A stretch of DNA of 37,517 nt from Akkermansia muciniphila (GTDB lineage: Bacteria > Verrucomicrobiota > Verrucomicrobiia > Limisphaerales > UBA9464). The notes under the pieces are model-generated. The model was not told the origin of the DNA and did not search any database. It saw only the letters and a program-made list of their open reading frames with translations. Below are positions 9,551-26,870 of this stretch, one piece after another. The translations under genes and the position numbers were made by a program. The stretch spans positions 1 to 37,517 of the forward strand of contig CAMCYJ010000026.1 of NCBI GenBank assembly GCA_945883815.1, in the 5' to 3' direction. Position 1 is the stretch's first letter. Each line of letters starts with the position of its first letter.

Positions 9551-11224
9551 ATGTCGGCCTCCGCCGCATTCGCAGAACTGCTGAAGCAGTACGACCGCCA
9601 ATTCAAGGCCGGTCAAATCGTCAAGGGAACCATCCTCGAAGTCCGTCCGAAAGAAGTCCTCGTGGACATCGGCGGCAAATCCGAAGGCGTCGTCAGCGCC
9701 TCCGAGTTCGTCGAGTTCGAGAAGGTTGTCGTGGGCGACATCATCGACGTCCTCATCGAGAAGGCCGAAGACAAGGAGGGCAATGTCCACCTGTCCAAGG
9801 AAAAGGCCGAGTTCCAGCAGAACTGGGACCGTATTCAGAGCATTTGCAACGAGGGTGGCAATGTCACCGGCAAGGTGAAGTCCATCGTCAAGGGTGGCCT
9901 GATCGTCAATATTGGCGTCGAGGCGTTCTGCCCGTCTTCCCAGGTTGACATCGTTCCCCCGAAGAACCTGGCCTCCTTCGTTGGCAATGCCTACGAGTTC
10001 AAGGTCGTGAAGCTCAATCCGGACCGCCAGAACGTGGTCCTGAGCCGCCGCGAAATCATCGAGACCGAGCGCAACGCCCGCCGTTCGTCGCTGCTGTCCG
10101 AGATGATGCCCGGCGACATCCGCAAGGGCACGGTCAAGAACCTCACCGACTTCGGCGCGTTCATCGACCTCAACGGCCTCGACGGCCTGCTGCACATCAC
10201 CGACATGTCCTGGGGTCGCCTCACGCACCCGAGCGAGATGCTCAAGGTGGGTCAGGAGATCGACGTCGTCGTCCTCGACATCAACCGCGAGAAAGAGCGC
10301 GTCAGCCTGGGCCTCAAGCAGAAGCTGTCCAACCCCTGGGACAACATCGAGAGCAAATACCCCGTCAACGCCAAGGTCAAAGGCAAGATCGTCAACCTCG
10401 TGCCCTACGGCGCGTTCGTCGAGATCGAGCCCGGCGTCGAGGGCCTGGTGCACGTCACCGAGCTGTCCTGGACCAAGCGCATCGCCAAGCCTTCCGACGT
10501 CCTCAAGCAGGGCCAGGAAATCGAAGCGGTCGTCCTCGGCATCAATCGCGACGAGCAGAAGATCAGCCTCGGCATTCGTCAGCTCGAGACCAACCCGTGG
10601 GACCTCGCCCACGCCAAGTACCCGCCGGGCACCAAGGTCAAGGGCCCGATCCGCAACCTCACCAGCTACGGCGCGTTTCTCGAGCTCGAGGAAGGCCTGG
10701 ACGGCATGGTGCACGTGTCTGACATGAGCTGGACCCGCAAGGTCAACCACCCGAGCGAAGTCCTCAAGAAGGGCGACGAAGTCGAGGCGGTTGTGCTCGA
10801 AGTCGACAAGGCCAACCAGCGCATCAGCCTCGGCATGAAGCAGCTGGGCGTGGATCCGTGGGAGCAGATCGAGACCTTCTTCCGAGTCGGCGACCTCGTC
10901 TCCGGCAAGGTCACCAAGCTCGCCAGCTTCGGTGCGTTCGTTGGCTTGCCCAACGACATCGACGGACTGGTCCACATCTCCCAGGTCAGCGAAGACCGGG
11001 TCGACAAGATCAAGAACGTCCTCAAGGTCGGCGACGATGTCACCGCCCGCGTCATCAAGATCGACCGTGCCGATCGCCGCATCGGTCTGTCCATCAAGGC
11101 CGCGAATTACAGCACCGAGCAGCTGAAGGAAGAGCAGAAGCTCCTCGATCAGCTCAAGCCCGGTGAAGACCTGGTCGCCCTCGAGCACGCCTTCGCCGCG
11201 GCCGAGGCGAAGACCCAGGACTAA
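9551..11224 (+). CDS. rpsA: 30S ribosomal protein S1
   Basis: This 557-residue protein contains six S1 RNA-binding domains, at roughly 18-86, 102-166, 186-256, 271-341, 358-428 and 445-514. The last four show the repeating pattern GxVxxLxxFGAFV followed by GLVHxSxxSW. S1 binds mRNA on the small ribosomal subunit and helps initiation on leaders with weak Shine-Dalgarno sequences, which fits the many such leaders here. The length matches the six-domain bacterial type. A long minus-strand open frame over the same region is only a codon-bias shadow. The last 20 or so codons and the terminator are duplicated at 18788-18916. Confidence 0.97.
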   Translation: MSASAAFAELLKQYDRQFKAGQIVKGTILEVRPKEVLVDIGGKSEGVVSASEFVEFEKVVVGDIIDVLIEKAEDKEGNVHLSKEKAEFQQNWDRIQSICNEGGNVTGKVKSIVKGGLIVNIGVEAFCPSSQVDIVPPKNLASFVGNAYEFKVVKLNPDRQNVVLSRREIIETERNARRSSLLSEMMPGDIRKGTVKNLTDFGAFIDLNGLDGLLHITDMSWGRLTHPSEMLKVGQEIDVVVLDINREKERVSLGLKQKLSNPWDNIESKYPVNAKVKGKIVNLVPYGAFVEIEPGVEGLVHVTELSWTKRIAKPSDVLKQGQEIEAVVLGINRDEQKISLGIRQLETNPWDLAHAKYPPGTKVKGPIRNLTSYGAFLELEEGLDGMVHVSDMSWTRKVNHPSEVLKKGDEVEAVVLEVDKANQRISLGMKQLGVDPWEQIETFFRVGDLVSGKVTKLASFGAFVGLPNDIDGLVHISQVSEDRVDKIKNVLKVGDDVTARVIKIDRADRRIGLSIKAANYSTEQLKEEQKLLDQLKPGEDLVALEHAFAAAEAKTQD

Positions 11225-11244
11225 TCGTCCAAGTTCCGTTTCCA

Positions 11245-11275
11245 AGCGCGCACCCTCACCGGTGCGCGCTTTTTT
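11245..11275 (+). terminator. Rho-independent terminator after rpsA
   Basis: AGCGCGCACC (11245-11254) pairs with GGTGCGCGCT (11261-11270), followed by a T-run. A near copy lies at 18874-18905 in the duplicated segment. Confidence 0.92.
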
Positions 11276-11446
11276 GTTGGGCTGACCCGCTTCCGCAGAG
11301 GGGTCGGCCCTCACTTTTGACACTTTGGAGCTGGGGAACGGCACGCCATTCGGGCCCGTCCCGAAGGGACCTGCCACATCCTTGCTGGAAGGAAGGAAAG
11401 TGCCGAATACACCGATCCGGATTATTTGGCATCAATTTGGATTCAT

Positions 11447-11474
11447 TGATGTCTGATTCACCGTATTGACATCA
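11447..11474 (+). promoter_or_regulatory. Candidate vapBC operator/promoter
   Basis: TGATGTC (11447-11453) and GACATCA (11468-11474) form an inverted repeat that overlaps a perfect TTGACA box (11466-11471), 27 bases before the vapB start. VapB-type antitoxins usually bind such palindromes to repress their own operon. No good -10 box is seen at the right spacing. In the duplicate at 18228-18650 the TTGACA box and one arm are lost. Confidence 0.4.
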
Positions 11475-11500
11475 GATACCTCCGTCAGCATCGTAGTGGG

Positions 11501-11728
11501 ATGAGGACGACGTTGACCTTGGACGATGACCTTCTCGAACTGGCAGCACGTCAGGCGAAGCTCCGAGGCGTCTCCCTGAGCAGGGCCGTTTCCGATCTCC
11601 TCCGCCGGGGTCTCCATGCTGCCACCCCGTCGCAAACCAAAGACGGTCTCCTAATGTTCCAGCTTCCCGAGGACTCGCCCATGGTCACGACCGATGACGT
11701 GCGACTCCTCGAATCGGAGGGGGTGTGA
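11501..11728 (+). CDS. vapB: VapB-type antitoxin
   Basis: This 75-residue protein starts with a ribbon-helix-helix-like N-terminus: the strand MRTTLTLDDDLLELAARQAK, then helices with LRGVSLSRAVSDLLRRGL. The C-terminal tail contains PMVTTDDVRLLESEGV, typical of segments that wrap around the toxin. It would bind DNA and neutralise the VapC encoded next. Its stop overlaps the vapC GTG start (GTGA), so translation is coupled. A damaged copy lies at 18436-18650. Confidence 0.85.
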   Translation: MRTTLTLDDDLLELAARQAKLRGVSLSRAVSDLLRRGLHAATPSQTKDGLLMFQLPEDSPMVTTDDVRLLESEGV

Positions 11729-12165
11729 AGGGCTATCTTCTCGACACCAATGTGCTCATCGCATTGCTCTGGCCCAGCCACGCGCACCACACGCGGGCCG
11801 TGAGGTGGTTCACGAGGCATCGTTCGAGCGGCTGGGCGACCTGCCCGTTCACTCAAGCGGGTTTCGTCCGCATCGTTTCCAACCCCGCCTTCTCCCGCGA
11901 TGCGGTCACACCATGCGATGCAGTGGGCGTGCTGGCCGCCAACATCGGGTCAAAGGACCATGCGTTCTGGCCGGATGAACTGCCTTTGGTCGAGGCCGTC
12001 GCTTTTGCTGGTTCAAAGTTGCTCGGACATCAACAGGTGACCGATGCATACCTGCTCGGACTTGTTCTACGACGGGGAGGAAAGCTGGCCACCTTGGACG
12101 AACGCATCACGGCGCTGGCAGAACCGGATTCGATTCAACGCCGGGCGATGGAAGTGATTGCGTAG
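11725..12165 (+). CDS. vapC: VapC-type PIN-domain ribonuclease toxin
   Basis: This 146-residue PIN-domain protein carries acidic metal-site residues D7 (LLDTNVLIAL), D107 (QQVTDAYLL) and D125 (LATLDERI). The usual second acidic position is a glutamine in TQAGFVR (Q44), a variant I know from other members of this VapC subfamily, so it need not mean inactivity. VapC toxins cleave specific RNAs when not bound by VapB. The GTG start overlaps the vapB stop. The gene looks intact, unlike its copy at 18647-18787. Confidence 0.88.
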   Translation: MKGYLLDTNVLIALLWPSHAHHTRAVRWFTRHRSSGWATCPFTQAGFVRIVSNPAFSRDAVTPCDAVGVLAANIGSKDHAFWPDELPLVEAVAFAGSKLLGHQQVTDAYLLGLVLRRGGKLATLDERITALAEPDSIQRRAMEVIA

Positions 12166-12299
12166 CGACCCCTTCCCGGCGCCCCGCAGAGGTGCGCCAA
12201 TACTTGTAACCGGTGGTTGCGGAAGCGGGTGGTTCCCACCGAGGACACGCTCTCAGGCTGTGGAGAACGCTCGCGGCAGGACACGCTGCGGGATCTGTC

Positions 12300-12334
12300 C
12301 TGATCACGGAGCGCCGAAAAGCAAATTCCTATCC
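12300..12334 (+). repeat. Short dispersed repeat, copy 3
   Basis: CTGATCACGGAGCGCCGAAA continues into AGCAAATTCCTATCC, matching the copies at 7598 and 9261. It sits between the convergent vapC and RND pump genes and overlaps the last codons of the pump gene by six bases. Upstream, CTGCGGGATCTGTC partly resembles the sequence before copy 1. Confidence 0.75.
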
Positions 12335-15300
12335 CGTTCGATTTCGGCTCTGGCCAAAAGCCGCGTAGAGCACCGGTAGCAAGAAAAGGTTGAGCGTGGT
12401 CGAGGTCACCAGTCCACCCAGGATGACCACCGCCATGGGGAACTCGATTTCGTGCCCCGGAATATTCCCTGAGATCACCAACGGCAACAGGGCCAAGGCG
12501 GCGCAGGACGCCGTCATCAGGATGGGCGCCAGTCGTTCCTCCGCCCCGCGCAGCACGAGAGGCACACCGAAAGGCATGCCTTCCTCGACTTCAAGGTGGC
12601 GGTAGTGACTGACCAACATGATGCCGTTGCGGGCGGCAATGCCGAGTACCGTGACAAAGCCAACGAGCGAGCCGATCGACAACACGCCGCCGCCGAGAAA
12701 GGCCGCAGCCACGCCGCCGATCAGGGCAAAGGGCAACGTCAGAGCCACCATCGTCGTGAGCCGGGCCGATTGGAAATCGACCTGCAACAGAACCAGGATT
12801 CCCAGCACGGAAAACCCAGCCAGCAGCAGCAAACGACGGGTAGATTCCTGTAGGGCAGCGTATTCTCCGAGGATCTCCGGATGATAGCCACGGGCGAAGG
12901 GGAGCGTCATGACCCGGTCCTGGATTTCCCGAGCAACAGCGCCCAGGTCCCGCCCTCGGACGTTGCAGGTGACGTCGATCCGGCGTGAGGCGTTCTCACG
13001 CTTGATCTCGTTCGGTGCCGGCACCACTTCGACGTCCGCCACGTCGCCCAGCGGGACCAGCATGCCGCCGGGAATTTCGATCGGAAGGCGCTTCAACGCC
13101 TGGACGTCGGTCCGGAGGGATTCCTCGCCCCAGACGACGACGCTGAAGATCTTCTGGTCCTGATAGAGCTCACCGACCCGGGTGCCCTGGATGAGGGTGG
13201 TCGCGGCAACCCGGACCTGACCGGGCATGAGCCCCAACATTGCGGCGGCCTCGGGGCGCAGGCGCACCTGGACCTGCGGAACCAATGCTTGGGCCTCGAC
13301 CTTGAGATCCGCCACTCCATTGATGCCCGAGAGCGATTGCTTCACTTCCTGAGCTTTGTTCCTCAATTCGCCGAGGTCCGGTCCGAAGATGCGGACGACG
13401 ATCGTCGCGCTGGCGCCAGTCAGGACTTCCTTGATGCGTTCCTTCAGGTAGGTCAGCAGGTCCCGGTACAATCCCGGGTATCCGTCCACGACCTCCTGAA
13501 CCTTCGCGACGGTGGAGTCGTAGTCGACCTTGGGATCAAGACTGATCCAGAGCTCGGTGAAGTTGGGGCCTACGACTTCATCGGCGACTTCGGCGCGACC
13601 GATGTGCGATCCGAAGTTGCGGACGCCGGGGACGGCCCGGAGTTCCTTGCTGACCTGCACGGTGATTCGGCGCATGGCTTCCAACGAGGTGCCGGGTTTT
13701 TCGACCCAGTGCATGAGGAAATCGCGTTCTTTGAAGTTGGGGAGAAACTCCTCCCCAAGCCGGGGGATGGCGATGCCGGTGAGGAGGAAGACCACCACCA
13801 GCACCGAGATGGCTGCGTAGGGTCTGCCAATCAGGCTAGGTAGAATGCTGCCGTAGATCCGTTTGAGCCAGAGCACCAGTGGCGCGTCTATGCGCCGTTC
13901 GGGTGCGCCCGGCAGGAGCATGAGGCACATCGCCGGCGTCACGGTGAGCGCCACACCCAGCGAGGCCATGATCGCCACGACATAGGAGAAGGCGAGTGGC
14001 CGGAAGAAGGTGCCGGTCAATCCCGGCAGGAAGAACACCGGGATGAACACCAACACCACAATCAGGCTGGCGAACACAACTGCACTACGGACCTCCAGGG
14101 AGGCGCCGAGCACCACTTGGAACGCCGGTCGTGGATCGGCCAGCAACCGGTTCTGGCGCAGACGGCGCACGATGTTCTCCACGTCGATGATCGCGTCGTC
14201 GACGACTTCACCCACGGCGATGACCAGGCCCGCCAGCACCATGGTGTTGATGGTGCCGCCTCTCCAGTGCAGCACCAGCGCGGCCGCCATGAGGGACATC
14301 GGGATCGCCGAGACGCTGATCAACGCCGTGCGCCAATCGAAGAGGAAACCCATCAGGATGATCACCACCAGCAGGCAACCCATCCACAGGGCGTGCGACA
14401 GGTTGTCGAGTGACATCTCGATGAAGGTCGCCGGTCGGAAGATGGCTGAATCGATCTCAAGGCCGACCAGTCCCGGCCGCAGCAAGTCGAGGGCGGCCTC
14501 AACCTTGTGGGTGACTTCCAGGGTATTTCCCCAAGGCTGCTTCTCGACGATGAGTAGAAGACCCGGACCGTCGTTGATCACCGCGTCGCCGATCGGGGCC
14601 GGATGCCCCATCACGACCTCGGCCACGTCTCCGATGCGCAGGGGAACCCCGTTGGTGAACCGGACCACCGTCTGGGCCAGATCCTCGATGGTGACGATCG
14701 GGGCCAGATGGCGGACGGGCAGTCGCTGGTTGGGGGTGTCGATGAATCCGCCGGCGCTGACGAGAGCGGCGTCGCCCGCCGCCCGCACCACGGCGTCCAG
14801 GCTGACGCCGTGCATTCGCAGCCGTTCGGGATCGACCAACACCTGATACTGGCGATCGCGCTGGCCCCAGATGGCGACGTTGGCCACGCCGGGAACCGCC
14901 ATCAACCGCGGGCGGATCGTCCAGAGGGCGAGCTCGGACATCTCCATCTGCGAGAGATTGGTGGAGGAAATGCCGATCTTGAGGGCCCGGCTGGTGGAGG
15001 AGAGGGGCGGCAGCAGGACGGGCGGACGGGAGGTCAACGGCAATTTGGGGGCGGCAATCGCCACCCGTTCCTGCACCAGTTGCCGCGCGCGCATCAGGTC
15101 CGTGCCTTCCTCGAAGATCAGCACCACGGAGGAAAGGCCGAGCACGGTCTTGGAGCGAACCGTCTTCAACCAGGGGACGCCATTCACCGCGTTCTCGAGG
15201 GGCACGGTAATGAGACCTTCGACCTCCTCGGTCGAAAGCCCGGGTGCCTCGGTCTGGATCTCGACCAATGGGGGCGCAAACTCCGGGAAGACGTCCATGG

Positions 15301-15403
15301 GTGCCTGTCGCACCACACGCAGGCCGAGCACGATCATCGCGATGGCCGATGCCATCACCAGGACCCGCGCACGCAGGGACGCCGAAATCAGCCAGGTCAT
15401 CAT
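12329..15403 (-). CDS. RND efflux pump, inner-membrane subunit (CzcA/CusA family)
   Basis: This 1024-residue proton-driven pump has the HME-RND layout: an N-terminal helix, the porter motif [19 protein letters not shown] (39-57), and central and C-terminal membrane blocks with [18 protein letters not shown]. The fourth helix carries [13 protein letters not shown] (398-410) with D402, D403 and E409. That differs from the classical zinc/cobalt (DFGxxxDGA) and copper/silver (AIGxMxDA) signatures, so the substrate is open. The frame extends to 15493, but the ATG at 15403, four bases after the adaptor stop, fits homologues. It is the last gene of the efflux operon. Confidence 0.92.
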
Positions 15404-15407
15404 GGTG

Positions 15408-16460
15408 TTACTTGCTGAACCCGACTTCGGTGCCGAACAGTTCAGCGGCTCCCTCGGTGACGATGCTCGCTCCCACCGCCGGCCCACTGGCAAGAACGGC
15501 GACGTTGCCCATCACCCGCCGCAGTTGCACGCGATGGCGTGCGAATCGATGCGGTGCGGGATTCTCGTAAACCCAGGTCCCGCCCTCGATATCGATGACC
15601 ACACTCGACCAGGGAACCACGAGCGAATCTTCTGTGGAGTTCATGGTCAGGCTCGCACCCACCCTTTCTCCGAGGCGGAAGCGGTGATCCGGGTTCTCCA
15701 ACTCGAAGAACAAATCCACCGAAGACGCCGACGGATCCGCGGAAGGCGGCGATGCGATCGGACTCGCCGCCCGTCCGGAATCCCCCTTGTCCCCACCCAA
15801 ATTACCTATCAGCGCCGGTTGGGCCAGATCGATGCGCCGGAGTTCGCCAGCGTAAACCGGGACCCGGACCCGGACCTTCGCGGGCGTGGTGCCTGGAAGG
15901 ACCCTCGGCCCCAGCAGCGCACGTCGGGCAGTGACCCTTCCCAGGTCCGCCCGGGCGACCTGAAGCACGACTCGGGTCTCGTCCACGATCCGTTGGCTGC
16001 CGGACTTGTCGCGCAGCATGCGTTCCGCCCGCTCCACGGCAATCTCGGCGCCCTGTACCTGCGCCTTCGATGCTGCGATGGCTCCGTCGGCATCGACCTG
16101 CGATTCGGCCAGCCGGATCCGATCCGCGGGATTCATTCCGGGGAGCAACGGCGCGATCGACTGGGTTCCCTCGGAGCCGGATGGCTCCATTTCCCCGAGC
16201 GAAACCATCACCTCTCCGCCGAACAACCGGACTTGGGAAAGCTTCTTCCTTTCGACCTTGGCAGTCCGGATGCCGAGTCGTTCCTCGGCCTTGGGAGTGA
16301 GGGTGACCCCGCTGAACTCGGCTTCGTTGGCCTTCTGGCCGACCGTGGCGGGGGGGGTGGTTGGATTCGGCGCGGCAGCCGTCATGCCTCCAACGAGACG
16401 GATCCCGAGCAGGACGACAACCAACGCGGGGCTCGATGGGATTCCGGAGAAGGATTTCAT
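15408..16460 (-). CDS. RND efflux periplasmic adaptor (membrane fusion protein)
   Basis: This 350-residue protein starts with a signal/anchor sequence (about 10-29). It has the adaptor layout of a metal-type HlyD/CusB family member: [20 protein letters not shown] near 51-70, an alpha-helical hairpin around 112-185 and a beta-barrel with [14 protein letters not shown] small C-terminal domain follows, with [18 protein letters not shown]. It bridges the inner-membrane pump to the outer-membrane channel. Its ATG overlaps the stop of the upstream channel gene by four bases, and the pump starts four bases after its stop. Confidence 0.88.
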
Positions 16461-17833
16461 GGGGTCACGACGGGGGATGGCTTCGTTCGATCGGGAACCA
16501 GGTCCAGGCGATGGGCGATGGCACGCTCGAGTTCTGCCCGGGCCCGTTCCCAGTCGGCATTCGCCAGCAAACGATTCTGGGTAGCTGCCAGGAGCACGCG
16601 CTCCGCTTCGAGCGCCTGCGTCGGGGGCAGATCGCCCGACTCGACTCCCTTCCGGGCCATCTGAACCGTTTCCTCCAGTGGTGGATGAACCTGATCGTCC
16701 CAGGACCGCAAAACTTCCAGGGCCTGTCCTGCGCGGACCCGCGCCTGGAGTACTTCCAGCCGGATCTGTTGTCGGAGAGTGATGTAACGGCGGAGCGATC
16801 GCTCCAACTGCGCGTCGGCGATCGCCTTTCCGCCCTGATTCTGATGAAAGACCGGGATCGAAAAATCCACCCCTGGGCCGATCTCGAAACTCGAGCCGAT
16901 GCCGTTGGCATCGATGTCCGCGGTGACGGTGGCGATCTCCTTGCGTGCCAGCCCGGCGCGCTTGCCGGCGGCTTCGATGGCCAATTCAGTCGCCCTCAGG
17001 TCGGGACGATTGGCGAGCGCATCCAGGGTCAGCTCCCCGGCGCTGCGCCCGATGGGTTCGGGACGGGGGGAAGGATCGGCGAGGCGGAGGCCGGACGCGT
17101 CCCGCTCCAGGCCGAGAAGGGTTCCAAGGCGTCCGCGTGCCAATTCGATGTTCGCCCGGGCACGCACCCAGTCCTGCTCGGCATTCAACGCTGCGACGCG
17201 GGCGGTCGTCGCTTCCAGTTCACCCAGATCGCCCGCCCGAAGCCGTGACTCCGCCACCGCAGCCAATTGCTTGAGCACGCGCGCCGTTTCCTGACTCAAG
17301 CGCGCTGCTCCCTCTGCCATCCGCAGGTCGGCACAGGCCAGCCTGACGTCGCGAACCAAATCGAGTCCTCCCTGAACCATCCGTTCGGCCACTTCCCGGG
17401 CCTGCGCTTCCGCTGTGGCGACGCGCTGTCTCCGCAGCCAGAGGACCTCCGACGGAAACCGGGCGGTGAACTCAAATTGCTTCGGCCCCAGCGGGAACAA
17501 CATGAGCATCGACGGGTTTGTGAGCTGACCCGCGGCGATGATGTCGGCTCGGGTGATCCCCAATTCCGAAAGCAGTTGTTGGAAAACAGCGTTGTTCCAA
17601 AGCGCGATCGCGACGGCCTCGCTGTCGTGGAGCGGGCGGTCCAGGGAAACGCCGGGCGGCAATTGCCAAGTGCCGGCGGCAGCGGCGGTGCCGAGCGAAT
17701 GCCCCGAACGATCCTGCAGTTGACGGGAGACGGCCGGACGAAGCGATCCGGGGGACGCACAACCAGCAAAAGCAAGGACCGCCAGCACGAGGAGCAGGGC
17801 CCAAAGATCCATTCGTCGGTGACCAGTTTCCAT
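16457..17833 (-). CDS. Outer-membrane efflux channel lipoprotein (TolC/OEP family)
   Basis: This 458-residue TolC-like protein starts with a lipoprotein signal, with lipobox LAFAGC and acylated C25. Two repeated OEP halves of long amphipathic helices follow. Typical motifs are LWNNAVFQQLLSELGI near 78-93 and LANRPDLRATELAIEAAGKR in the second half. It is the first gene of the minus-strand efflux operon and forms the exit duct for the RND pump. An alternative start lies seven codons downstream (17812). Between this gene and 18008 only a TTGACA box on the minus strand (17935-17930) stands out, without a good -10. Confidence 0.9.
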   Translation of the reverse strand: METGHRRMDLWALLLVLAVLAFAGCASPGSLRPAVSRQLQDRSGHSLGTAAAAGTWQLPPGVSLDRPLHDSEAVAIALWNNAVFQQLLSELGITRADIIAAGQLTNPSMLMLFPLGPKQFEFTARFPSEVLWLRRQRVATAEAQAREVAERMVQGGLDLVRDVRLACADLRMAEGAARLSQETARVLKQLAAVAESRLRAGDLGELEATTARVAALNAEQDWVRARANIELARGRLGTLLGLERDASGLRLADPSPRPEPIGRSAGELTLDALANRPDLRATELAIEAAGKRAGLARKEIATVTADIDANGIGSSFEIGPGVDFSIPVFHQNQGGKAIADAQLERSLRRYITLRQQIRLEVLQARVRAGQALEVLRSWDDQVHPPLEETVQMARKGVESGDLPPTQALEAERVLLAATQNRLLANADWERARAELERAIAHRLDLVPDRTKPSPVVTP

Positions 17834-18007
17834 CCATCAAAAGAGTGTCGGATCCATCGGCAAATGCGGGTTTTAATCACATCCAAGCCATCTCATTACC
17901 ATCAAAACGTTGAGCGAATCCGCTTTGGATGTCAAGCAGGGATCCTGCCAGCCCGGCAATTCGGACGCATCTTCATACGGCCCCCGCCCGGTTCTCGTTC
18001 TCTCCCC

Positions 18008-18222
18008 CGGCTGGCCAAGTTGCGGAATCTCAGCCATGGTTGCGTGGTTCAGTTCCCGATCACCGAGATCACCGACGCCTTGCTCGCGAGTTATTCGCGC
18101 CATGGGGGCATCAACCATCTGGACGGGATCAACCTGCCCTCCAAGGCCTCCGTCGCCGACATCACCCGCGACCTGCTCCGACTGGTGTTCCCGGGCTTCT
18201 TCGACGAGCACATCATCCACAG
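18008..18222 (+). pseudogene. 5' fragment of epsC (serine acetyltransferase), duplicated
   Basis: This fragment is nearly identical to 21670-21884, the beginning of the intact epsC gene, and encodes the same FPITEITDALLASYSRHGGI start and NLPSKASVADITRDLL. After HIIH it breaks off and runs into the vapB upstream repeat. The acetyltransferase domain is missing, so no enzyme can be made. Weak similarity may extend upstream to about 17990. Confidence 0.9.
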
Positions 18223-18435
18223 AGGGGCCGCAGAGGGGTCGGCCCTTACTTTTGACACTTTGGAGCTGGGGAACGGCGCGCCATTCGGGACCGTCCCGAA
18301 GGGACCTGCCACCTCATTGCTGGAAGTAAGGGAAGTGCCGAATGCACCGATCCGGATTATTTGGCATCAATTTGGGTTAATTGATGTCTGATCCGATATA
18401 CCCACATCAGCTATCTCCGTCAGAGTCGTTGCCCG

Positions 18436-18650
18436 GTGAGGACGACGATGACCTTCTCGAACTGGCAGCCCGCCGGGCGAAGCTCAGGGGTGTTTCCCTG
18501 AGCAGGGCCGTTTCAGATCTCCTACGCCGGGGTCTCCATGCTGCCACTCCGTCGCAGACCAGAGACGGTCTCCTGATGTTCCAGCTTCCCGAGAACTCGC
18601 CCATGGTCACGACCAATGACGTGCGAGGCCTCGAATCGGAGGGGGTGTGA
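18436..18650 (+). pseudogene. Damaged vapB copy
   Basis: This is a copy of the antitoxin at 11501-11728. The original ATG has become GTG, and a 13-base deletion removed the stretch coding for the RHH strand (TLTLD). The rest (LLELAARRAKLRGVSLSRA to LESEGV) is kept in an open frame that can be entered only from an unrelated ATG at 18381. The translated product would lack the DNA-binding strand. The region upstream (18228-18435) is the copied vapB leader. Confidence 0.8.
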
Positions 18651-18787
18651 AGGGATATCTTCTCGACACCAATGTGCTCATCGCATTGCTCTGGCCCAGC
18701 CACGCGCACCGCACGCGGGCCGTGAGATGGAAGCGATTGCGTAGCGCCCCTTCCCAGCGCACCGCGGACGTGCACCAACACTTGTAA
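18647..18787 (+). pseudogene. Internally deleted vapC copy
   Basis: The first 27 codons match vapC (MKGYLLDTNVLIALLWPSHA). About 343 bases are then missing and the sequence rejoins at the equivalent of 12148, shifted in frame, and stops after 46 residues. Only the first acidic residue of the PIN site remains, so the fragment cannot be an active toxin. Confidence 0.88.
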
Positions 18788-18916
18788 TCTGAAGACCTGG
18801 TCGCCCTCGAGCGCGCCTTCGCGGCCGCCGAGGAGGAGAAGACCTAGGACTCATCGTCCAAGTTCCGTTTCAAAGCGCGCACCCTCACCAATGCGCGCTT
18901 TTTTGTTGGGCTGACC
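18788..18916 (+). pseudogene. rpsA 3'-end fragment with terminator
   Basis: This is a copy of 11164-11288: the last rpsA codons (EDLVALE, then AFAAAE), stop region and terminator, with several substitutions and a small insertion. It follows directly after the vapC remnant. In the intact locus this piece instead precedes vapB. Confidence 0.9.
18874..18905 (+). terminator. Duplicated rpsA terminator
   Basis: AGCGCGCA (18874-18881) pairs with TGCGCGCT (18892-18899), followed by a T-run. The stem is two base pairs shorter than the original at 11245. It may still insulate the sigma-factor operon from upstream transcription. Confidence 0.8.
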
Positions 18917-19043
18917 GGCTACCGCCTCGTGCACGGTCAGCGGTCTCGTCGGGAACCTTCGGCCCGGACCGCCAGATCCACCATTTTGCCGATTCCAAAC
19001 GACTCTGTCCGGTTTGAGCGGGATGCGGCAGTCTTGCAGTGAG

Positions 19044-20648
19044 ATGAACGCCGCGACCACGACGCCCGACCGCGATCTGGTGCGATCCTACGCTTCGGAA
19101 GGATCGGAGACGGCGTTTCGCGCCCTGGTCGGTCGGCATGTGGGTTTGGTCTTCGCCACCGCCTATCGGCAAGTCGGTGACGCGGGTCTCGCCGAGGAAA
19201 TCACCCAGAACGTCTTCGTCCACCTCGCCCGCAAGGCTCCCTCGCTCGCCGGACACGAAACCATTGCGGGATGGCTCCATCGGTCGGCCATCCTGGAGTC
19301 CAAGGCGCGTTTCCGCTCCGAGGTGCGTCGCCGCCGTCGCGAAGAGGTCGCCGCCGCCTTGGCCCAGACAGAGCTCCACGGACGCGACCCCTCCGAGGAT
19401 CTCACTCCGCTGCTCGATGAGGCGCTGCTCCAACTCCGGGAAGCCGACCGCCTCGCGCTGGTCCTCCGATTCCTGGAGGAACGCAGTTTGCGCGAAGTGG
19501 GCAACGCGCTGGGCATCGACGAAGACGCGGCCCGCAAGCGGGTGAGCCGGGCCCTGGCGCGGGTGACGGAGTTCTTCAGGAATCGCGGGTTCGCCCTGCC
19601 CTCGGCTGGTGCAGCAACCCTGCTCGGCCAAGCCACCCAGGCTGCCCAGGCCGTTCCAGCCGGGCTTGCCTCGAGCGCCGCCGCGGCTGGCTTGGCCGCC
19701 AGTGGCCCTGCCTCGGGCCTCGGTCTGTTGCTCCTTTCCGTCATGAGCCTCACCAAAACCCAGACCGCCCTGCTCTGCGGACTCCTCGTGCTCGCGCCCC
19801 TCGCCTGGCAATCGGCCTCCCTGGCCCATGCCCAACGGGAGGTCGCTTCGCTCGAGCGGGATCGGGCACGGTTCAATGGACAGGTTGCGGACGCCGAACA
19901 AGAACTGGCCCAACTCGACCGCACCCTGCTCCGAGTCCGAAACGAAACGGCCGCCGCCCGTGCTCAGTTGGCCAGCATCAAAGGCGGCCTTCCAAAACCG
20001 GCCACGGATTCCACGGCCACAAACACTTATCGCTGGGACGACAATGCTCCTTTGGTGCGCCTGCCAAAGCGATTGCTTCCTGCCTTCCAATTCCAAGAAA
20101 AGGCAAACGCATCGGGTGAACTGTCCCCGGAAATCCGGAGCGTTCTTCAAATCACGGAAGCTGAAGCCCGCGAGGTCGAATCTGCAATTGACCGTTTCTG
20201 GGCCGCCTACCAGACGCTAATCTTGAAGGTTGCCCGCCCGGTCGCACCCACCCCTGAAGAATTGGACGGCTGGTCACGCGATCAGGTTAGGACCTTTGAA
20301 TTTCAGGGACTCTCCAAACCCGCCCTTAGCCTTCGCAGGGATTTCTTAACCCAACTAGAAGGAACGCTGGACACCGAACGACTAAGACTCCTCGACAGAT
20401 ACGGTGCCTTCTGGGGCGAACCGGACCATCGGCTCACCGTCTACCAGTTCGACCCATCATCACCCAACGGGGCCGAACCCATGGTGACTTTCCGAGTTGA
20501 GACTCCCGACGGCCGATTATCTACAACCAGACGATCTTTAAACAATTTCCCCCGCTATGCACGTCCACTCATTCAGTCATGGCTCGATGCCGTGGACCAG
20601 AAGGCAAGGGTTTCAGCTCCCGCAACAGGCGCGCCCACCAATCCATGA
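19044..20648 (+). CDS. ECF-like sigma factor fused to a transmembrane sensor-like domain
   Basis: This 534-residue protein has an N-terminal sigma-70 part. Region 2 (about 20-100) includes GLAEEITQNVFVHLARK and GWLHRSAILESKARFR. Region 4 (about 128-180) includes DRLALVLRFLEERSLREVGN and a helix-turn-helix. An Ala/Gly-rich linker follows, then a hydrophobic segment near 240-256, a coiled coil (about 258-313) and a C-terminal domain. Such extended sigma factors are familiar in Verrucomicrobia, but their signals are not known to me. The extension could tether or inhibit the sigma part. The ATG at 19044 precedes the typical sigma start. The next gene overlaps by four bases. Confidence 0.85.
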   Translation: MNAATTTPDRDLVRSYASEGSETAFRALVGRHVGLVFATAYRQVGDAGLAEEITQNVFVHLARKAPSLAGHETIAGWLHRSAILESKARFRSEVRRRRREEVAAALAQTELHGRDPSEDLTPLLDEALLQLREADRLALVLRFLEERSLREVGNALGIDEDAARKRVSRALARVTEFFRNRGFALPSAGAATLLGQATQAAQAVPAGLASSAAAAGLAASGPASGLGLLLLSVMSLTKTQTALLCGLLVLAPLAWQSASLAHAQREVASLERDRARFNGQVADAEQELAQLDRTLLRVRNETAAARAQLASIKGGLPKPATDSTATNTYRWDDNAPLVRLPKRLLPAFQFQEKANASGELSPEIRSVLQITEAEAREVESAIDRFWAAYQTLILKVARPVAPTPEELDGWSRDQVRTFEFQGLSKPALSLRRDFLTQLEGTLDTERLRLLDRYGAFWGEPDHRLTVYQFDPSSPNGAEPMVTFRVETPDGRLSTTRRSLNNFPRYARPLIQSWLDAVDQKARVSAPATGAPTNP

Positions 20649-21538
20649 AACGGATTCTGCTGATCACCGCAGCTCTCTTGATGGGTTGCCTCGTCTTGCG
20701 GCGGACGGGCATCGAATCCAGTCGCCTTCGCGAAAATTCGCTCCCGTTAGAGGGGCAAGTTCTCGCCGCATCGAACCAACTGGCCGCCGTTCTTTCCAGT
20801 GTCGACTCCCGACGCCAAGACCTCGCGCGGGAGACGGCGGAAAGCGAATCCATGGTCGCTGAACTCGCCCAAGTCGCTCGTCGTCGGTCACAGGCCTCGG
20901 CCGAGGCGGTTGTCACCTCCACACCGCTTCCAAACAAGCTGCCCACCTGGAATCCAGAGTCCCCCTACATCTGGTTGGAGAAACCGCTGTTGAAAGGGCT
21001 GTCATTTGTCGTTTTCGGACTGGATGGATCCCTCTCGCCGCCCGGGTTAGAATTTCTGGCACTGCAACCGGGTGAGGCGAACCCATTGAGTGAATCCTTG
21101 AAGCGACTCGTCATCGAACATAAGCGCCTGGAGGCCTCTCGCAGTCGGGTGGTGCAGGAACACCTACCGGAGATCGCCAACGATCCAGGCCCTAAGTTCA
21201 CCTTGCGCATCGACCCCGTGACGGAAGTCTCAATGGGCCTCAGAACCGAGGCCGAGGCCGTTCTGACGGAACACTTGGGAGTACAACGTATGGAACTCTT
21301 CAACGGAGCCATCACGGACGGGTTGTCGAAACTCTTCGGAAAACAACCACTCGGAGCCAGAACCCTTTCGTTTGTCCGCATCCCCAACGGCCTGTTCATG
21401 GTGGCCGACCAACAAGGTGACTCCGAAACCAGCCGTGACTGCTGTTTTCCTGATATCCGGCAGAAGCTCCCGGAACACCTGCACCACCTGATCCCGCCCG
21501 AATTCATCCCCAAATCAGACGAACCAGCGGAACCCTGA
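20645..21538 (+). CDS. Exported partner protein of the sigma factor
   Basis: This 297-residue protein has a short N-terminal hydrophobic segment (about 4-18), with a possible lipobox around LLMGC (C15). A helical, probably coiled-coil part (30-85) follows, then a C-terminal domain. From about 100 to 165 it resembles the end of the sigma protein: both have a Pro-rich lead, an x-LxKxLL step, a GxLSPE/P step and a helix with paired acidic residues. Its start overlaps the sigma stop (ATGA), so the two are coupled. No catalytic motif is visible. It may be a periplasmic sensor or regulator for the fused sigma factor. Confidence 0.7.
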   Translation: MKRILLITAALLMGCLVLRRTGIESSRLRENSLPLEGQVLAASNQLAAVLSSVDSRRQDLARETAESESMVAELAQVARRRSQASAEAVVTSTPLPNKLPTWNPESPYIWLEKPLLKGLSFVVFGLDGSLSPPGLEFLALQPGEANPLSESLKRLVIEHKRLEASRSRVVQEHLPEIANDPGPKFTLRIDPVTEVSMGLRTEAEAVLTEHLGVQRMELFNGAITDGLSKLFGKQPLGARTLSFVRIPNGLFMVADQQGDSETSRDCCFPDIRQKLPEHLHHLIPPEFIPKSDEPAEP

Positions 21539-21681
21539 CAAAGGTCCACAGCCTCAGCGGACTCCTCGCCATCGACCCGAATTCGTCCCATCCCGTCCCG
21601 AGTCCATCGACCATCGCCCCGGTCCGGGAAGACCCCAGGTCGACCCGGGTTTTTCCTCGTGTTTTCCCTCGGCTGGCCAAG

Positions 21682-22638
21682 TTGCGGGATCTCAGCCATG
21701 ATTGCGCCGTGCAGTTCCCGATCACCGAGATCACCGACGCCTTGCTCGCGAGCTATTCGCGCCACGGGGGCATCAACCATCTGGACGGGATCAACCTGCC
21801 CTCCAAGGCCTCCGTCGCCGACATCACCCGCGACCTGCTCCGACTGGTGTTCCCGGGCTTCTTCGACGACCACATCATCCACAGCTCGGAGTTGAAGGCC
21901 GAGACGGCGCTGCTGCTCGACAGTATCGCTGGCCGATTGGAGGACGAACTCTACAAGGCCCTGCGTTGCGCCGATCGCACCGATGGCACCTCATCGACCA
22001 AGTCCGACCCGCGGCCCATGGCCCATCACCTGGTCAGCGAGTTCTTGCGCGAACTCCCGGCCATCCGGGAAATCCTGACCACCGATGTCGAGGCCGCTTT
22101 CTCGGGCGATCCGGCCGCGGCCAACCGCGAAGAAATCATCGTGGCCTACCCGTTTGTCGAGGCCGTTGCGGTGCATCGATTGGCCCACGCCTTGTACCTG
22201 CGCCATGTGCCCTTCCTGCCGCGCATCATGGCCGAGTGGTCCCACAGCCGGACCGGCATGGACATCCACCCAGGCGCCCGCATCGGAGACCATTTCTTCG
22301 TCGACCATTGTACCGGCGCGGTGATCGGCGAGACCGCCGTCATCGGCAACCGCGTGAAGCTCTACCAAGGCGTGGGCCTCGTGGCCCGATCCCTGGCCGC
22401 AGGCCAAGCCCTCCGCGGACAAAAGCGCCACCCGACCATCGAAGACCGGGTGACCATCTATGCCAACGCCACGATCGTGGGCGGCGACACGGTGATCGGC
22501 GCCGGCAGCACCATCGGAGCCAATGTCTTCCTCATGCAAAGCGTGCCGCCTGAGTCACTGGTGCTCATGGACGACCACCGCCTGAAGGTCACCGCCAAGA
22601 AAGACCGCACCGTCGCCGCCATCGATTGGCAGATTTGA
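21682..22638 (+). CDS. epsC: Serine O-acetyltransferase (EpsC type)
   Basis: This 318-residue enzyme makes O-acetylserine for cysteine synthesis. An N-terminal helical part carries FPITEITDALLASYSRHGGI. A left-handed beta-helix follows, with SRTGMDIHPGARIG, DHCTGAVIGETAVIG and VKLYQGVGLVARS, the usual SAT active-site series including the DH pair. The length fits EpsC. The start is uncertain: TTG at 21682 is the first usable codon and GTG at 21709 is an alternative, with no ATG in frame nearby. Its first 215 bases are duplicated at 18008-18222. The 143 bases before it hold no other feature. Confidence 0.92.
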   Translation: MRDLSHDCAVQFPITEITDALLASYSRHGGINHLDGINLPSKASVADITRDLLRLVFPGFFDDHIIHSSELKAETALLLDSIAGRLEDELYKALRCADRTDGTSSTKSDPRPMAHHLVSEFLRELPAIREILTTDVEAAFSGDPAAANREEIIVAYPFVEAVAVHRLAHALYLRHVPFLPRIMAEWSHSRTGMDIHPGARIGDHFFVDHCTGAVIGETAVIGNRVKLYQGVGLVARSLAAGQALRGQKRHPTIEDRVTIYANATIVGGDTVIGAGSTIGANVFLMQSVPPESLVLMDDHRLKVTAKKDRTVAAIDWQI

Positions 22639-22657
22639 GAGTCGGATGGGCAGCCCA

Positions 22658-22723
22658 TCAAGGCTCCCAAAGCTCCAGAAGCAAACTGGCTAGGACGTCT
22701 TTTTGAAGAGCGGTGAGAGGCAT
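22658..22723 (-). pseudogene. Start of an AbiEii-like nucleotidyltransferase (fragment)
   Basis: The minus-strand ATG at 22723 gives MPLTALQKDVLASLL and then stops after 21 residues. This is the typical opening of AbiEii-family nucleotidyltransferase toxins, which normally have more than 200 residues. It overlaps the tail of the upstream fragment as such genes do in intact pairs. Call by motif only. Confidence 0.4.
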
Positions 22724-22947
22724 TTGTGCAACTCCTGGGCCGCCCACCAGGCGCGGCGATCGCCGTATTACCGCAAATGCTCCACCACCAGCCGAATGTC
22801 CTCCAGATGGCGGATGCGGGCCTCGGGATGTCGGAACCAAAAGCACTCCGGGTGAGCGCGAACCAATTCGCTGGCCCTCTCGATGAGTGCCGGAGGTGCG
22901 GCCACTGCGGTCGCTCCATCGTTGGATTGTTCGGGCACCAGAGCCAT
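22690..22947 (-). pseudogene. Broken partner gene of the AbiEii-like fragment
   Basis: From the ATG at 22947 the minus strand encodes ALIERASELVRAHPECFWFR and HPEARIRHLEDIRLVVEHLR. It then meets a TAA at residue 60 and, in the same frame, continues as YGDRRAWWAAQELHKCLSPL to a TAG. The composition looks like a real helical protein with a nonsense mutation. I recognise the pattern as a small gene found upstream of AbiEii-like genes but know no function. The flanks up to 23166 hold no other feature. Confidence 0.45.
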
Positions 22948-23166
22948 CCTGTGAATAGTTAGCGACAGGCGGCGGGAGCGGCAAGGCGGCGGTTGCCCTC
23001 CTGCCCCGTCGCTCGTTGGCCATCCGTTCGAAACAGCGAACCGCTGCAAGTTCACCCACCCTCTGCCATCAGCCGAGGGACGGAGACTGAATCATCCGGA
23101 AGGTTCCCCACCCCAACGTCGAAAGCCAAAACTCAGACCTCAATAAAAACCCATGGATTGGGCGAC

Positions 23167-25797
23167 TCAGGGGCGTTTCACTTTGGGTTGATCGTCTTCA
23201 TCTTCGTCGTCCATCCCTTCCGCCAAAACGAAGCCAGCGCGCACTGGCGAGGGCATGGAGGACTGGGCACCCCGGACTGAACGCCAGATGATCTCGTTGA
23301 GTTCCAAATCATCGGCCGCATCTTCGCGGCTCAAGTCCATCTTGTCCGAACGTTCGCGGCCCCAGGCATCCGCGAGATTCTTTTCGTCGAGCCGAGCTTG
23401 AGGCGTGATGGCTGTGTAGGGCTTGAGATCGGGCTTGGATCCAAAGCAGGCATGCATGGGCATCGCGGCCGCATCAAACTGGGTCATCGGCTTCATCCCG
23501 AGGATGAGTTCCATGGTCCGCAGCATCGAACACGTCGAGTACAGGGTGGAATCGACCGTCTTGCGTCGCACGTACGGGCTGATGGCATAGGCAATGGTTC
23601 TATGGGCATCAATGTGGTCGGGGCCATTTTGTGCGTCGTCCTCCACGACAAAAATCGCGGTGGAGGCCCAGAATTTCGATCGGCTCACGGCCTCGACCAC
23701 GCGACCCAGGGCCAGATCATTTTCAGCCATGTACGCGGTCGGAGTCGGCTTGCCTGTCGAAGTTCCGGCCGTGTGATCGTTCGGAAGCCGCACAATTTGC
23801 AGGCGAGGCATTTCTCCCTCGCGCTCAAATCGATGCAATTCGGAGATGAATCGGTCAGCCCGGGCCAAGTCGCTGTAATCCATGTCGAAACTCCGGAAAT
23901 GCGGATCAAAATGTCCCTGGAGCGTCGGAACCAAGGTGGAACACGGGTCATTGGTGGTCGCACCATTGTTGACGAATTCGCCGTAGCTTCGGTAGGTCAC
24001 CTTGGCCGCTTTGGCCCGGTCCCAAAGATAACCGCCGGCGGGCTGCGCGATCTTGAACCGCCCCTCACTCGGATAGGCGTATTTACGGTCCTGATTGTGG
24101 CCGTAACTCATCGGCCAGATACGCTCGACGAAGTCCGTCGCGTAAGCACCCATGGTCCATTCGTGGCCATCGGCACTCACTTCGCTCTCGACGTAGAAAT
24201 TGTCGAGCAGCACGAACTCGCGAGCGAGTCGATGATGGTTCGGGGTCACGGATTCGGGAAACAGACACAGGGTGGGATCGCCCTTCCCCTGCGGCATGTC
24301 GCCCAGAACCTGATCGTAGGTGCGGTTTTCTTTGATGATGTAAATGCAATGACGGATGGGAGAGGGGTTGCCGGTGATCAACGGCACGGGGTGTCCCGGC
24401 TCCAGCGTTGCAGGCGGTGCCGGCGGGCGGCACGCCAAGGTTCGCGCGGTGTACCGCTTCAATTGCTTCTCAAGGTCTTCGCGATCCTTGGGCAGTTCGA
24501 TGATGGACAACGATCCCGGCAAGAGTCCGCCAATGTATTCACGAATGGTTGCCGGCGCTTCGCGGCCGGGTTGAGGCCCCATGCGATTGGACCTCGACGC
24601 CAACCCCTTGCCATTGGTCACCAACAGCCGACGACCATCCGGAGTGACGCGGACCGAAGTGGGATACCATCCGGTGGGAATGAACCCCATCGATCGGCTG
24701 CGACCGGGCTGCCGAACATCAAAAACAGCAATCGCGTTGATGTTGGCGTTCGACACGAAGAGCAAGGATTCGTCGGGGCTGAGGGCCACACTGTTGGGCG
24801 TTGAGCCCGGGGGCGAATCCGGCTCCAGTTCGGCAGCGAGGGTCTCCACGCAACTGCCGCCAGCGGTTTCGAGAACACTAATGGTGTTGCGGTTGGCGTT
24901 GGCGACGAACAGGAATTTTCCCGCCCGGTTGAGGACCATTTCATTCGGGTGCTCTTGCACGGGCCATCGAGCCAGCTTGCGCCCAGAACTCAGCTCCAAA
25001 ACCCCCACCTCAGCGCGCCCCCAATGACTGATGTAAAGTCGGTCGCGGGCCACATCCGGCAGACACGCGAACGGATACGGAGCCTCCGTGTTCAGCACTT
25101 CCAAAAGGGCGCGAGCACGCTTGGTGATGGATTCTTCGTCGAGATCGTGCCACGGGTCTTTTTCTCCGGCGACCGACGGCGCCGTGCGCTCGCCCAACTG
25201 GATGTCGCGAACCACTGTCCCCGCATTCGTGCCCCCCTGAAGAGCAACCTCGGTCACAGACTGCCCCAGCACGTTGGCGACCCAAAGCTTCCGACCATCC
25301 GGACTCACGGCAATGCCCGCGGGAATCCCCCTTTCAGACGCAGGCCGCAGCGCCACGGTGTTGCCATTGGCGAGGCTGCCTTTTTGGAAATCAAAGAGAT
25401 GGATGACTTCTTTTCCCGCACCACTCGCGACGATCCGCTTGCCATCCGGCGTGAAGGCAATTCCGTGAAAGGCTTCCGGGAGAACGGTTCTGGAAAGAAT
25501 TTTGGCACTCGGAACGTCCACCAAGATGATCTCGTGGGGGCCAAAGCCGGAGTGGAGCACCGCCGCGAAACGCCCCGATGGATCGACGGCCATGTTCACC
25601 GGAAAATCTCCGAGAGAGACTTGCTTGCCCACCGGATCCAGCAGCCACTGATTGGGCAATCGAACCGTTCCATCCGGGCGGCTGCCCGGCCAGTTTCCCG
25701 CTTCAGGTGAGGCTGAAGGGCTGGATTGTTGGTGCGTCAGACAACCCGCAACCAACGCCAGACCGGCCAAACACGGCATCCAGAATCGCTTCATCAA
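23167..25797 (-). CDS. YncE-like beta-propeller / phosphoesterase lipoprotein
   Basis: This 876-residue protein begins with a lipoprotein signal (LALVAGC, C19). An N-terminal seven-bladed YVTN/YncE-type propeller follows (about 50-430), with repeated blades of the type FTPDGKRIVAS, VSPDGRKLWVAN and LSPDESLLFVSNA. The C-terminal PF04185 phosphoesterase domain contains KENRTYDQVLGD (489-500), SADGHEWTMGAY and VVEDDAQNGPDHIDAHR (acidic residues at 719-721). The C-terminal tail is very acidic. It would sit in the periplasm or on the cell surface. The substrate is unknown, and relatives are annotated as acid phosphatase or phospholipase C-like. The gene is monocistronic as far as visible. Confidence 0.85.
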   Translation of the reverse strand: MMKRFWMPCLAGLALVAGCLTHQQSSPSASPEAGNWPGSRPDGTVRLPNQWLLDPVGKQVSLGDFPVNMAVDPSGRFAAVLHSGFGPHEIILVDVPSAKILSRTVLPEAFHGIAFTPDGKRIVASGAGKEVIHLFDFQKGSLANGNTVALRPASERGIPAGIAVSPDGRKLWVANVLGQSVTEVALQGGTNAGTVVRDIQLGERTAPSVAGEKDPWHDLDEESITKRARALLEVLNTEAPYPFACLPDVARDRLYISHWGRAEVGVLELSSGRKLARWPVQEHPNEMVLNRAGKFLFVANANRNTISVLETAGGSCVETLAAELEPDSPPGSTPNSVALSPDESLLFVSNANINAIAVFDVRQPGRSRSMGFIPTGWYPTSVRVTPDGRRLLVTNGKGLASRSNRMGPQPGREAPATIREYIGGLLPGSLSIIELPKDREDLEKQLKRYTARTLACRPPAPPATLEPGHPVPLITGNPSPIRHCIYIIKENRTYDQVLGDMPQGKGDPTLCLFPESVTPNHHRLAREFVLLDNFYVESEVSADGHEWTMGAYATDFVERIWPMSYGHNQDRKYAYPSEGRFKIAQPAGGYLWDRAKAAKVTYRSYGEFVNNGATTNDPCSTLVPTLQGHFDPHFRSFDMDYSDLARADRFISELHRFEREGEMPRLQIVRLPNDHTAGTSTGKPTPTAYMAENDLALGRVVEAVSRSKFWASTAIFVVEDDAQNGPDHIDAHRTIAYAISPYVRRKTVDSTLYSTCSMLRTMELILGMKPMTQFDAAAMPMHACFGSKPDLKPYTAITPQARLDEKNLADAWGRERSDKMDLSREDAADDLELNEIIWRSVRGAQSSMPSPVRAGFVLAEGMDDEDEDDQPKVKRP

Positions 25798-25966
25798 CTG
25801 TCATGCTGGCGACCCGGTGCCGTTTTAGACAAGTGACGACTTGGTTTCGAAGACGTCGTGACGGCTCGGATTCGAGCAACTCGAGGCAGCGGTCTCATCA
25901 CCCACCGAACCACCGGCCGAACCCTCGGCCATCCAATGGCCCGGCAAGGGTTCACGCGGCAGCTAA

Positions 25967-26812
25967 CTAAACCACGAACTCCAGCGGCGGTGCCTTGGGG
26001 ATGGCTCCCATGGCCTGACCCCGGTCGAGGAAGCGGCGAATGCTCTCGCGGCCGCGCTCGCCGTAGTCGAGGGTCCAGTGGTTCACGTACATGCCCACAA
26101 AGCGGTCGGCCAAGTCATGCCCCATGTCGCGGGCCCATTGCAGCGAATGCGCCACCGCCTCGGGCCGGTGGTCGAGGCTGTACTGGATACTGGCGGTCAA
26201 GACGTCGCTGACGCGCTTGCGTAGCGCGGGCTCGTGCCGCTTGTGAATGACATTGCCACCCAAGGGCAGCGGCAGGCCGTCATTCTCGCGGCCCCACCAC
26301 ACTCCGAGGTCTTCGCACACCACCAGGCCTTCGTTGGCGTAGGTCAACTGGCCTTCGTGGATGATGAGTCCGACATCGGCCACACCCGACTTCACGGCCT
26401 GGAAAATCTCGTCGAACGGCACCACCACCAGGTCCAACTCGGCCCCGAGACGACCCGCCCACAACTGGAGAGCCAAGAAGGCGCTGGTCATCCGCCCCGG
26501 AATGGCGATGCGCCGACGCAGCACTTCGTCCCGCGTGTAGGGCTGCTTGGACACCAGCATCGGACCATAACCGTCGCCCATGCTCGCGCCGCTGGGCAAC
26601 AAGGCGTACTGGCCGCAGACATGCGCGTAGGCATGGATACTAATGGCCGAGATGTCCAACTCACCGCGGGTCGCCCGTTCGTTGAGGGTCTGGATGTCTT
26701 GAAGGATGTGTTTGAAGCGCAGGCCGGGTGAGGGAATCAATTCCCGCGCCAAGCCATAAAACATGAAGGCATCGTCCGGATCCGGCGAGTGGCCAAGTGT
26801 GAGCGTCAGCAT
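25967..26812 (-). CDS. mqnD: 1,4-dihydroxy-6-naphthoate synthase-like protein
   Basis: This 281-residue protein has a periplasmic-binding-protein fold used as an enzyme in the futalosine route to menaquinone. The family pattern is visible: GHSPDPDDAFMFYGLAREL near 7-25, TRGELDISAISIHAYAHV, GYGPMLVSK, RIAIPGRMTSAFLALQL and ADVGLIIHEGQLTYANEGL. There is no signal peptide, as expected for MqnD. The length is normal. The frame is open to 27025, overlapping the upstream gene, but homology starts at the ATG at 26812. The SPDPDD variant belongs to a sister group of classical MqnD, so the function is likely but not certain. The 169 bases before the next minus-strand gene hold nothing clear. Confidence 0.75.
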   Translation of the reverse strand: MLTLTLGHSPDPDDAFMFYGLARELIPSPGLRFKHILQDIQTLNERATRGELDISAISIHAYAHVCGQYALLPSGASMGDGYGPMLVSKQPYTRDEVLRRRIAIPGRMTSAFLALQLWAGRLGAELDLVVVPFDEIFQAVKSGVADVGLIIHEGQLTYANEGLVVCEDLGVWWGRENDGLPLPLGGNVIHKRHEPALRKRVSDVLTASIQYSLDHRPEAVAHSLQWARDMGHDLADRFVGMYVNHWTLDYGERGRESIRRFLDRGQAMGAIPKAPPLEFVV

Positions 26813-26870
26813 ACCGTTAAGTGAGCGGACGCTACGTCGGAACCCGGCGAAGTCGAGCGCGTGAATGGAA

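Follow-up and report, generated by a model that had tools for sequence, protein, structure and literature searches.

Pieces of alternative rpsA-epsC versions lie in series in a contig from an uncultured verrucomicrobial lineage

The window analysed here, one whole contig of 37,517 bases from a draft genome of 3.96 Mb in 189 contigs (contamination 3.14), carries pieces of at least two versions of the stretch between rpsA and epsC, one behind the other. In this genome and its relatives, differing contents are found between these same two core genes, and the stretch is in that sense a core-gene-bounded recombination hotspot. Our best explanation, to which we give slightly better than even chances, is that the rpsA-epsC stretch serves as a recombination hotspot in the subclade, and that two or more alternative versions of it have been stacked in the window by additive joins.

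Layout and self-comparison of the window

Genes and blocks lie on the forward strand unless stated otherwise. The intact rpsA, encoding ribosomal protein S1 (9551-11224; Pfam S1, 320 bits; protein matching those of the related genomes G003 and G005 at 99%), ends in the first copy of a repeated piece, R (11164-11296), which comprises the rpsA tail, the terminator and about 20 bp of flank, with GGGCTGAC-C-G-CT-CCGC common to G003 and the second copy. It is followed by V (11297-12222), a block of a leader, vapB (11513-11728) and vapC (11725-12165). VapC scored 110 bits against TIGR00028 (cut-off 73.6) and 34.6 bits for PIN, also above the cut-off, and as a toxin with a small upstream partner it belongs to the VapBC systems; vapB gave no family above cut-off in profile searches and is named by position only. 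Next come a scrap of 67 bp (12233-12299) that matches only its own genome among the 19 genus genomes searched, a dispersed motif of about 30 bp (12300-12329) whose position coincides exactly with the left edge of the efflux module in the alignment, and the efflux module itself (12329-17833, reverse strand), with an RND permease (ACR_tran, 756 bits; 625 bits for the CusA/CzcA model TIGR00914, below its cut-off of 701), an adaptor and an outer-membrane protein (OEP, 94 bits). E5' (17994-18222), consisting of the upstream edge and first part of epsC, is cut off and leads, across the five bases AGGGG (18223-18227), into a second vapBC block, V' (18228-18787), which begins with 4 bp of rpsA flank (CCGC). 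Behind V' and the two bases TC (18788-18789) stands a second rpsA tail with terminator, R' (18790-18925), ahead of an ECF-like sigma-factor gene (19014-20648; Sigma70_r4 34.4 bits and Sigma70_r2 30.8 bits, both above cut-off), a gene without Pfam family (20579-21538; in the same place in G010 and G001), and the intact epsC for serine acetyltransferase with its upstream edge, E (21656-22638; EPS_EpsC 149.2 bits against a cut-off of 150, Hexapep above cut-off). The layout is R-V, efflux-E5', V' and R'-sigma-gene-E, consecutively.

Self-comparison and a search of the own genome bore out the initial annotation in that duplicated pieces occur in permuted order, that a 5' fragment of epsC precedes the vapBC copy and that vapC is deleted in this copy. 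All duplicated pieces are in direct orientation and far above chance, as judged from E-values against the own genome and from self-repeats. The epsC start at 17994-18222 matched 21656-21884 at 95% (E 1.6e-99); the leader, vapB and the vapC start at 18228-18730 matched 11293-11808 at 88% as a single match (E 3.0e-192), which the self-repeat analysis split into a leader part at 88% and a vapB/vapC part at 93%; the vapC end and downstream DNA at 18719-18787 matched 12140-12209 at 86% (E 7.0e-15); and the rpsA tail with terminator at 18790-18916 matched 11164-11287 at 91% (E 1.5e-43). Self-repeats extended this last pair to 18925 and 11296; the copied block, earlier placed at 18228-18916, holds the pieces named for it and runs on to about 18925. 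In V', the repeat spacing changes from 6935 to 6922 at the vapB start, a loss of 13 bp that is also visible in the alignment, and from 6922 to 6579 in vapC, a loss of 343 bp. The second vapB (vapB'), previously described as damaged, does lack these 13 bp at its start, and its frame is otherwise open as far as the normal stop. Further copies, which had been considered elsewhere in the genome, were not found: the search returned five matches including the query itself, all on this contig (genome about 91% complete).

Outside this region, overlapping frames at about 81-420 repeat a 15-residue peptide, which points to short DNA repeats, tandem or dispersed, and EPEPEP and GSGSGS runs on both strands at about 33550-33680 reflect a simple-sequence repeat.

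Three joints are unusual, namely V/efflux (12233/12300), E5'/V' (18222/18228) and V'/R' (18787/18790). E5' ends in CACAG and V starts after CGCAG, with CAG common to both parents; the joint between E5' and V' reads CACAGAGGGGCCGCAGAGGGGTCGG, with CAGAGGGG occurring twice. At the V'/R' joint, which reads TAATCTGAAG, the parent sequences are TAACCGGTGG in V and CCCGGTGAAG in the rpsA tail, both with CCGGTG at this point. These two joints have only 3-6 bp of shared sequence and look like joins at few shared bases (microhomology in our reading), followed by small changes. If the four bases CCGC are trustworthy, their retention would mean that V' formerly stood behind an rpsA tail.

Comparison with relatives

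Comparison with relatives, proposed at the outset as the deciding check, accounted for the order through alternative versions of the interval. The comparison set comprised 19 genomes of the genus, the own genome included, and the screen for contigs with both rpsA and epsC scored only eight first-look candidates per genome, so that a missing hit is no proof of absence. Both genes were found on one contig in 6 of the 19 genomes (window included), with six different contents in between. Only about 75 bp separate rpsA from epsC in G011; G016 has vapBC and a remnant of the gene that precedes epsC, with vapBC directly behind rpsA, as in the window; G010 has the sigma factor and the second gene; in G005, a Panacea-antitoxin module is followed by some 98 bp of sigma-gene sequence and then by the efflux operon; and G001 has the Panacea module, the sigma factor, the second gene, about 0.7 kb of further DNA and the efflux operon. 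In G003, the start of the sigma gene follows rpsA, with no epsC match on that contig, and in G014 the contig ends inside a Panacea module behind the rpsA end, without epsC. Other DNA lies behind rpsA in G004, G007, G008, G012 and G013, and a full rpsA match was not found in 6 of the 19 genomes.

The Panacea domain scored 70 bits in G001 (cut-off 25.7), and the same protein was read from the translation in G005 and G014. The module stands behind the rpsA terminator in G001 (L058, 984-1760), G005 (L057) and G014 (L061, before 840), in the slot that vapBC occupies in the window and in G016.

Window positions 12300-18222 form one block with G005 and G001, running from the efflux operon into epsC (94.7% over 5.9 kb). 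Because the efflux operon and E5' are one block in these genomes, the epsC fragment arrived or stayed with the efflux operon. Positions 18790-19103 form one block with G003, made up of the rpsA tail, the intergenic stretch and the start of the sigma gene (87.9% over 314 bp), and positions 18988-27527 share with G010 a single block that starts shortly after rpsA, takes in epsC and extends past it (94.7%), which places R' where G010 has rpsA. It follows from the G003 and G010 blocks that the tail at 18790 sits in an old rpsA neighbourhood, and that the epsC at 21656 closes this version on the downstream side. The earlier proposal that vapBC may have moved as a unit carrying the rpsA end is not supported, in view of this continuity of the second tail with rpsA-sigma DNA of the G003 type.

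A single tandem duplication of the rpsA tail and vapBC was rejected, and with it the simple form of nested deletions from one such duplication that the initial annotation had named as a competing account: at 18790-18925, no vapBC intervenes where the second tail passes into the sigma-factor gene. The order could nevertheless come from an array of three units and several deletions, if a unit of rpsA tail, vapBC and epsC start had been present about three times in one lineage, to be read as R1 V1 E1 (R2) V2 (E2) R3 (V3) E3 with the bracketed parts deleted, and if the efflux module and the sigma gene had been added separately. Such an array would suit V' and R', which are closest to copies within the window, and the 4 bp of rpsA flank kept by V'. 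Yet it requires three units, at least three deletions and two insertions, R' meets the sigma gene exactly as in relatives that have no vapBC, and no array was found in the relatives read; we regard it as unlikely.

Divergence of the copies

Over the 67-codon body of vapB, the blocks V and V' have diverged at 20% of synonymous sites and at 4% of the remainder, and their leaders differ at 27 of 196 positions; V' is accordingly old or was diverged on arrival, and is no fresh copy. R' is nearest to its own R (92.5%), followed by G003 (91.1%) and G014 (90.2%). V' shows 20 differences in 287 positions to its own V and 30 in 287 to V of G016, with a grouping support of 0.67 only, and has the 4 bp of rpsA flank in common with V; E5' is equally close to its own epsC and to that of G010 (94.8%). 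In trees of the tail and of epsC, the pieces proved too short to separate import from old self-duplication, and by these comparisons an old self-duplication would account for R', V' and E5' as well as a foreign origin. With G016 as the reference for polarity, the changes in V' number 6 synonymous and 5 other, those in V 5 and 1; for vapB', 6 synonymous among 11 polarised changes correspond to a P of about 0.05 against neutrality, without correction for mutation bias.

The divergence also bears on the possibility that the assembler joined the versions of different strains. The genome is fragmented (189 contigs, contamination 3.14), the pieces correspond to alternative versions, and the tract at 99.5% described below could stem from mixed strains. 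Against this, the copies differ by 5-12% and each has its own deletions, the 3-6 bp shared at the joints are too little for an overlap, and a second version is absent from the other contigs of the genome. An artefact of this kind seems quite improbable to us.

Exchange between species

Over positions 20000-21499, a tract chosen by eye ahead of its test, identity of the window to G010 rises to 99.5%, with 8 mismatches in 1500 bp against 70 in 1000 on the left and 52 in 1000 on the right; the flanking stretches stand at 93-95%. The tract speaks directly for an exchange of DNA between species within the interval, and homologous exchange at or inside the interval is what characterizes a hotspot. 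Elsewhere in the genome, two stretches of 12 kb each match G010 at 92-93% along 7 kb and 10 kb; the interval's overall 94.7% is thus only modestly high, and only the 99.5% tract lies far outside the background. The tract spans the C-terminal half of the sigma factor and the next gene, a part of which the G001 version is unusually divergent.

Synonymous differences to G010 were 0.144 in the N-terminal part of the sigma factor, 0.012 in its C-terminal part, 0.010 in the next gene and 0.109 in epsC. Beyond epsC, the values were 0.161 and 0.206 for the two adjoining genes and 0.272-0.377 for four genes farther out. The efflux permease differed by 0.126 from G005 and by 0.118 from G001, with 0.317 and 0.346 to G005 in two genes of the left flank. 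To G016, the values were 0.220 for vapB and 0.118 for vapC, with flanks at 0.375-0.507; epsC, at 0.383 to G016, is the exception among the interval genes in not being below the divergence of the flanks. As ribosomal genes are codon-biased, synonymous values (pS) of rpsA were omitted from the flank comparison.

Searches for mobile elements

In line with the initial annotation, no transposase or integrase was found in the interval frames scanned, a selection of all frames, and Y2_Tnp occurs in 3 of the 19 genus genomes, the own genome not among them; by these searches, the interval does not qualify as a transposon or integrative element. Searches for a mobile carrier gave no match for V in 72,556 plasmids, none for the copy block in 50,697 phages, and none for the E5'/V' joint in viral contigs. 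At 133/136 bp, the direct repeat of the rpsA tail greatly exceeds the usual length of a target duplication. Inverted repeats at the ends of V, noted by eye near 11287 and 12219 (CCCGCTTCCGCA / TGCGGAAGCGGG), were dismissed: the left arm is rpsA flank that G003 also has, and the right arm is not conserved in G016.

These searches weigh on the idea of a circular intermediate, in which one circle of rpsA tail and vapBC and another of vapBC, efflux module and epsC start would have integrated by single crossovers, in rpsA and then in vapBC. The product would be identical to the observed order, with the two odd joints as circle closures, and tail remnants that by eye, with no family hit, resemble IS91, a kind of element credited with moving neighbouring DNA, lie in the corresponding interval in G001 and G003. 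With no integrase or transposase in the scanned frames of the interval, Y2_Tnp missing from the own genome, and plasmids and phages devoid of matches, we consider circles rather improbable.

The transposase-like tail remnants lie at L058 4995-5219 (G001) and L060 13156-13398 (G003), with the dispersed motif, or a variant, some 0.5-0.6 kb after each. A link of the window to IS91 was discarded, with remnants in relatives only and no family hit. The dispersed motif (CTGATCGCGGAGCGTCAAAAAGCAAATTCC) occurs at 9261-9290 and 12300-12329, exactly where homology to relatives begins. At up to 3 mismatches, it has two matches in the window, with 0.00 expected, and 8 places in 6 of the 19 genus genomes; it may be the end of an unknown mobile element.

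Discussion

A circle or a trimmed array, as initially suggested, would give the same order, and neither is needed given the alternative rpsA-epsC versions. In the stacking that we favour, an rpsA-vapBC version would first have been joined ahead of a resident rpsA-sigma-gene-epsC version, and the right-hand end of its vapBC would have been fused to the rpsA tail of the resident, to give R-V'-R'-sigma-gene-E. An rpsA-vapBC-efflux-epsC version would then have been joined in front of this product, and the donor epsC would have been truncated and linked to the beginning of V', to give R-V-efflux-E5'-V'-R'-sigma-gene-E. Each join would rely for one of its sides on homology in rpsA, a gene that remains whole, and would close the other without long homology, while older parts would be displaced downstream and then decay. 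The homologous left anchor in rpsA is assumed. The order would appear permuted because newer layers lie nearer rpsA.

We favour two additive joins because they need the fewest assumptions, and because relatives provide every kind of version that they use, or one closely analogous to it. The supposed intermediate R-V'-R'-sigma was not seen in any genome of the genus set, and neither was the donor version rpsA-vapBC-efflux-epsC, whose nearest analogue is G005, with another module replacing vapBC. Deletion versions that resemble those assumed are present in G005, where some 98 bp of the sigma gene precede the efflux operon, and in G016, with the gene remnant after vapBC. The competence genes comEC and dprA are present, each being above cut-off in 10 of 14 controls as well, and DNA uptake is possible.

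A more specific variant would make the site behind rpsA one where toxin-antitoxin systems drive the stacking: different modules would enter with a fresh rpsA tail and hold the new version in place by addiction, and a displaced vapB' would temporarily be kept as protection against the incoming toxin. Five of the 8 subclade genomes with the rpsA end on the contig have vapBC (window, G016) or Panacea (G001, G005, G014) there, and the open frame of vapB', in which 6 of 11 polarised changes are synonymous, was kept while the second vapC was lost. We think this variant rather improbable.

We explain the window as a scar record of a recombination hotspot, left by a process of known kind. In the Vibrio type VI effector-immunity arrays of Kirchberger et al. 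(2017; PMC5361080), new modules arrive at a constant gene and older genes are displaced downstream and kept as remnants, which is also what we propose for the window. Here the constant gene is rpsA, and the remnants include its own tail, a vapBC copy minus vapC and the start of a neighbour gene. Those authors asked whether copies are closer to other strains than to each other (PMC5361080); here R' and V' are slightly nearer to their own copies and E5' is tied. Homology-facilitated illegitimate recombination, with homology at one end only and an illegitimate join at the other, was proposed for the Vibrio arrays in the same paper (PMC5361080), and one-sided joins have been described for transformable bacteria and for conjugation (PMC3240628). 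In the window, two joints have 3-6 shared bases, and a homologous end in rpsA is invisible in the finished product.

Hotspots between core genes without mobile elements were reported by Oliveira et al. (2017; PMC5635113), likewise with one core-gene interval holding most of the change and homologous recombination at the flanking genes; that work counts genes and is not known to describe stacked fragments of flanking genes such as those found here. Transformation merodiploids carry two versions of a region side by side after DNA uptake (Johnston et al., 2013; PMC3784515). The duplications in that account span about 100-900 kb and form via repeats, whereas those in the window cover a few kb with non-homologous joints.

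Permuted order without relatives at hand is no ground for inferring circles. Remnants of the flanking core genes mark the joins from version to version, and an apparent scramble thereby becomes a readable record. Orphan tails of such genes could be searched for in other genomes, and additive exchanges thus counted where a mobile element is absent, as here in an uncultured lineage.
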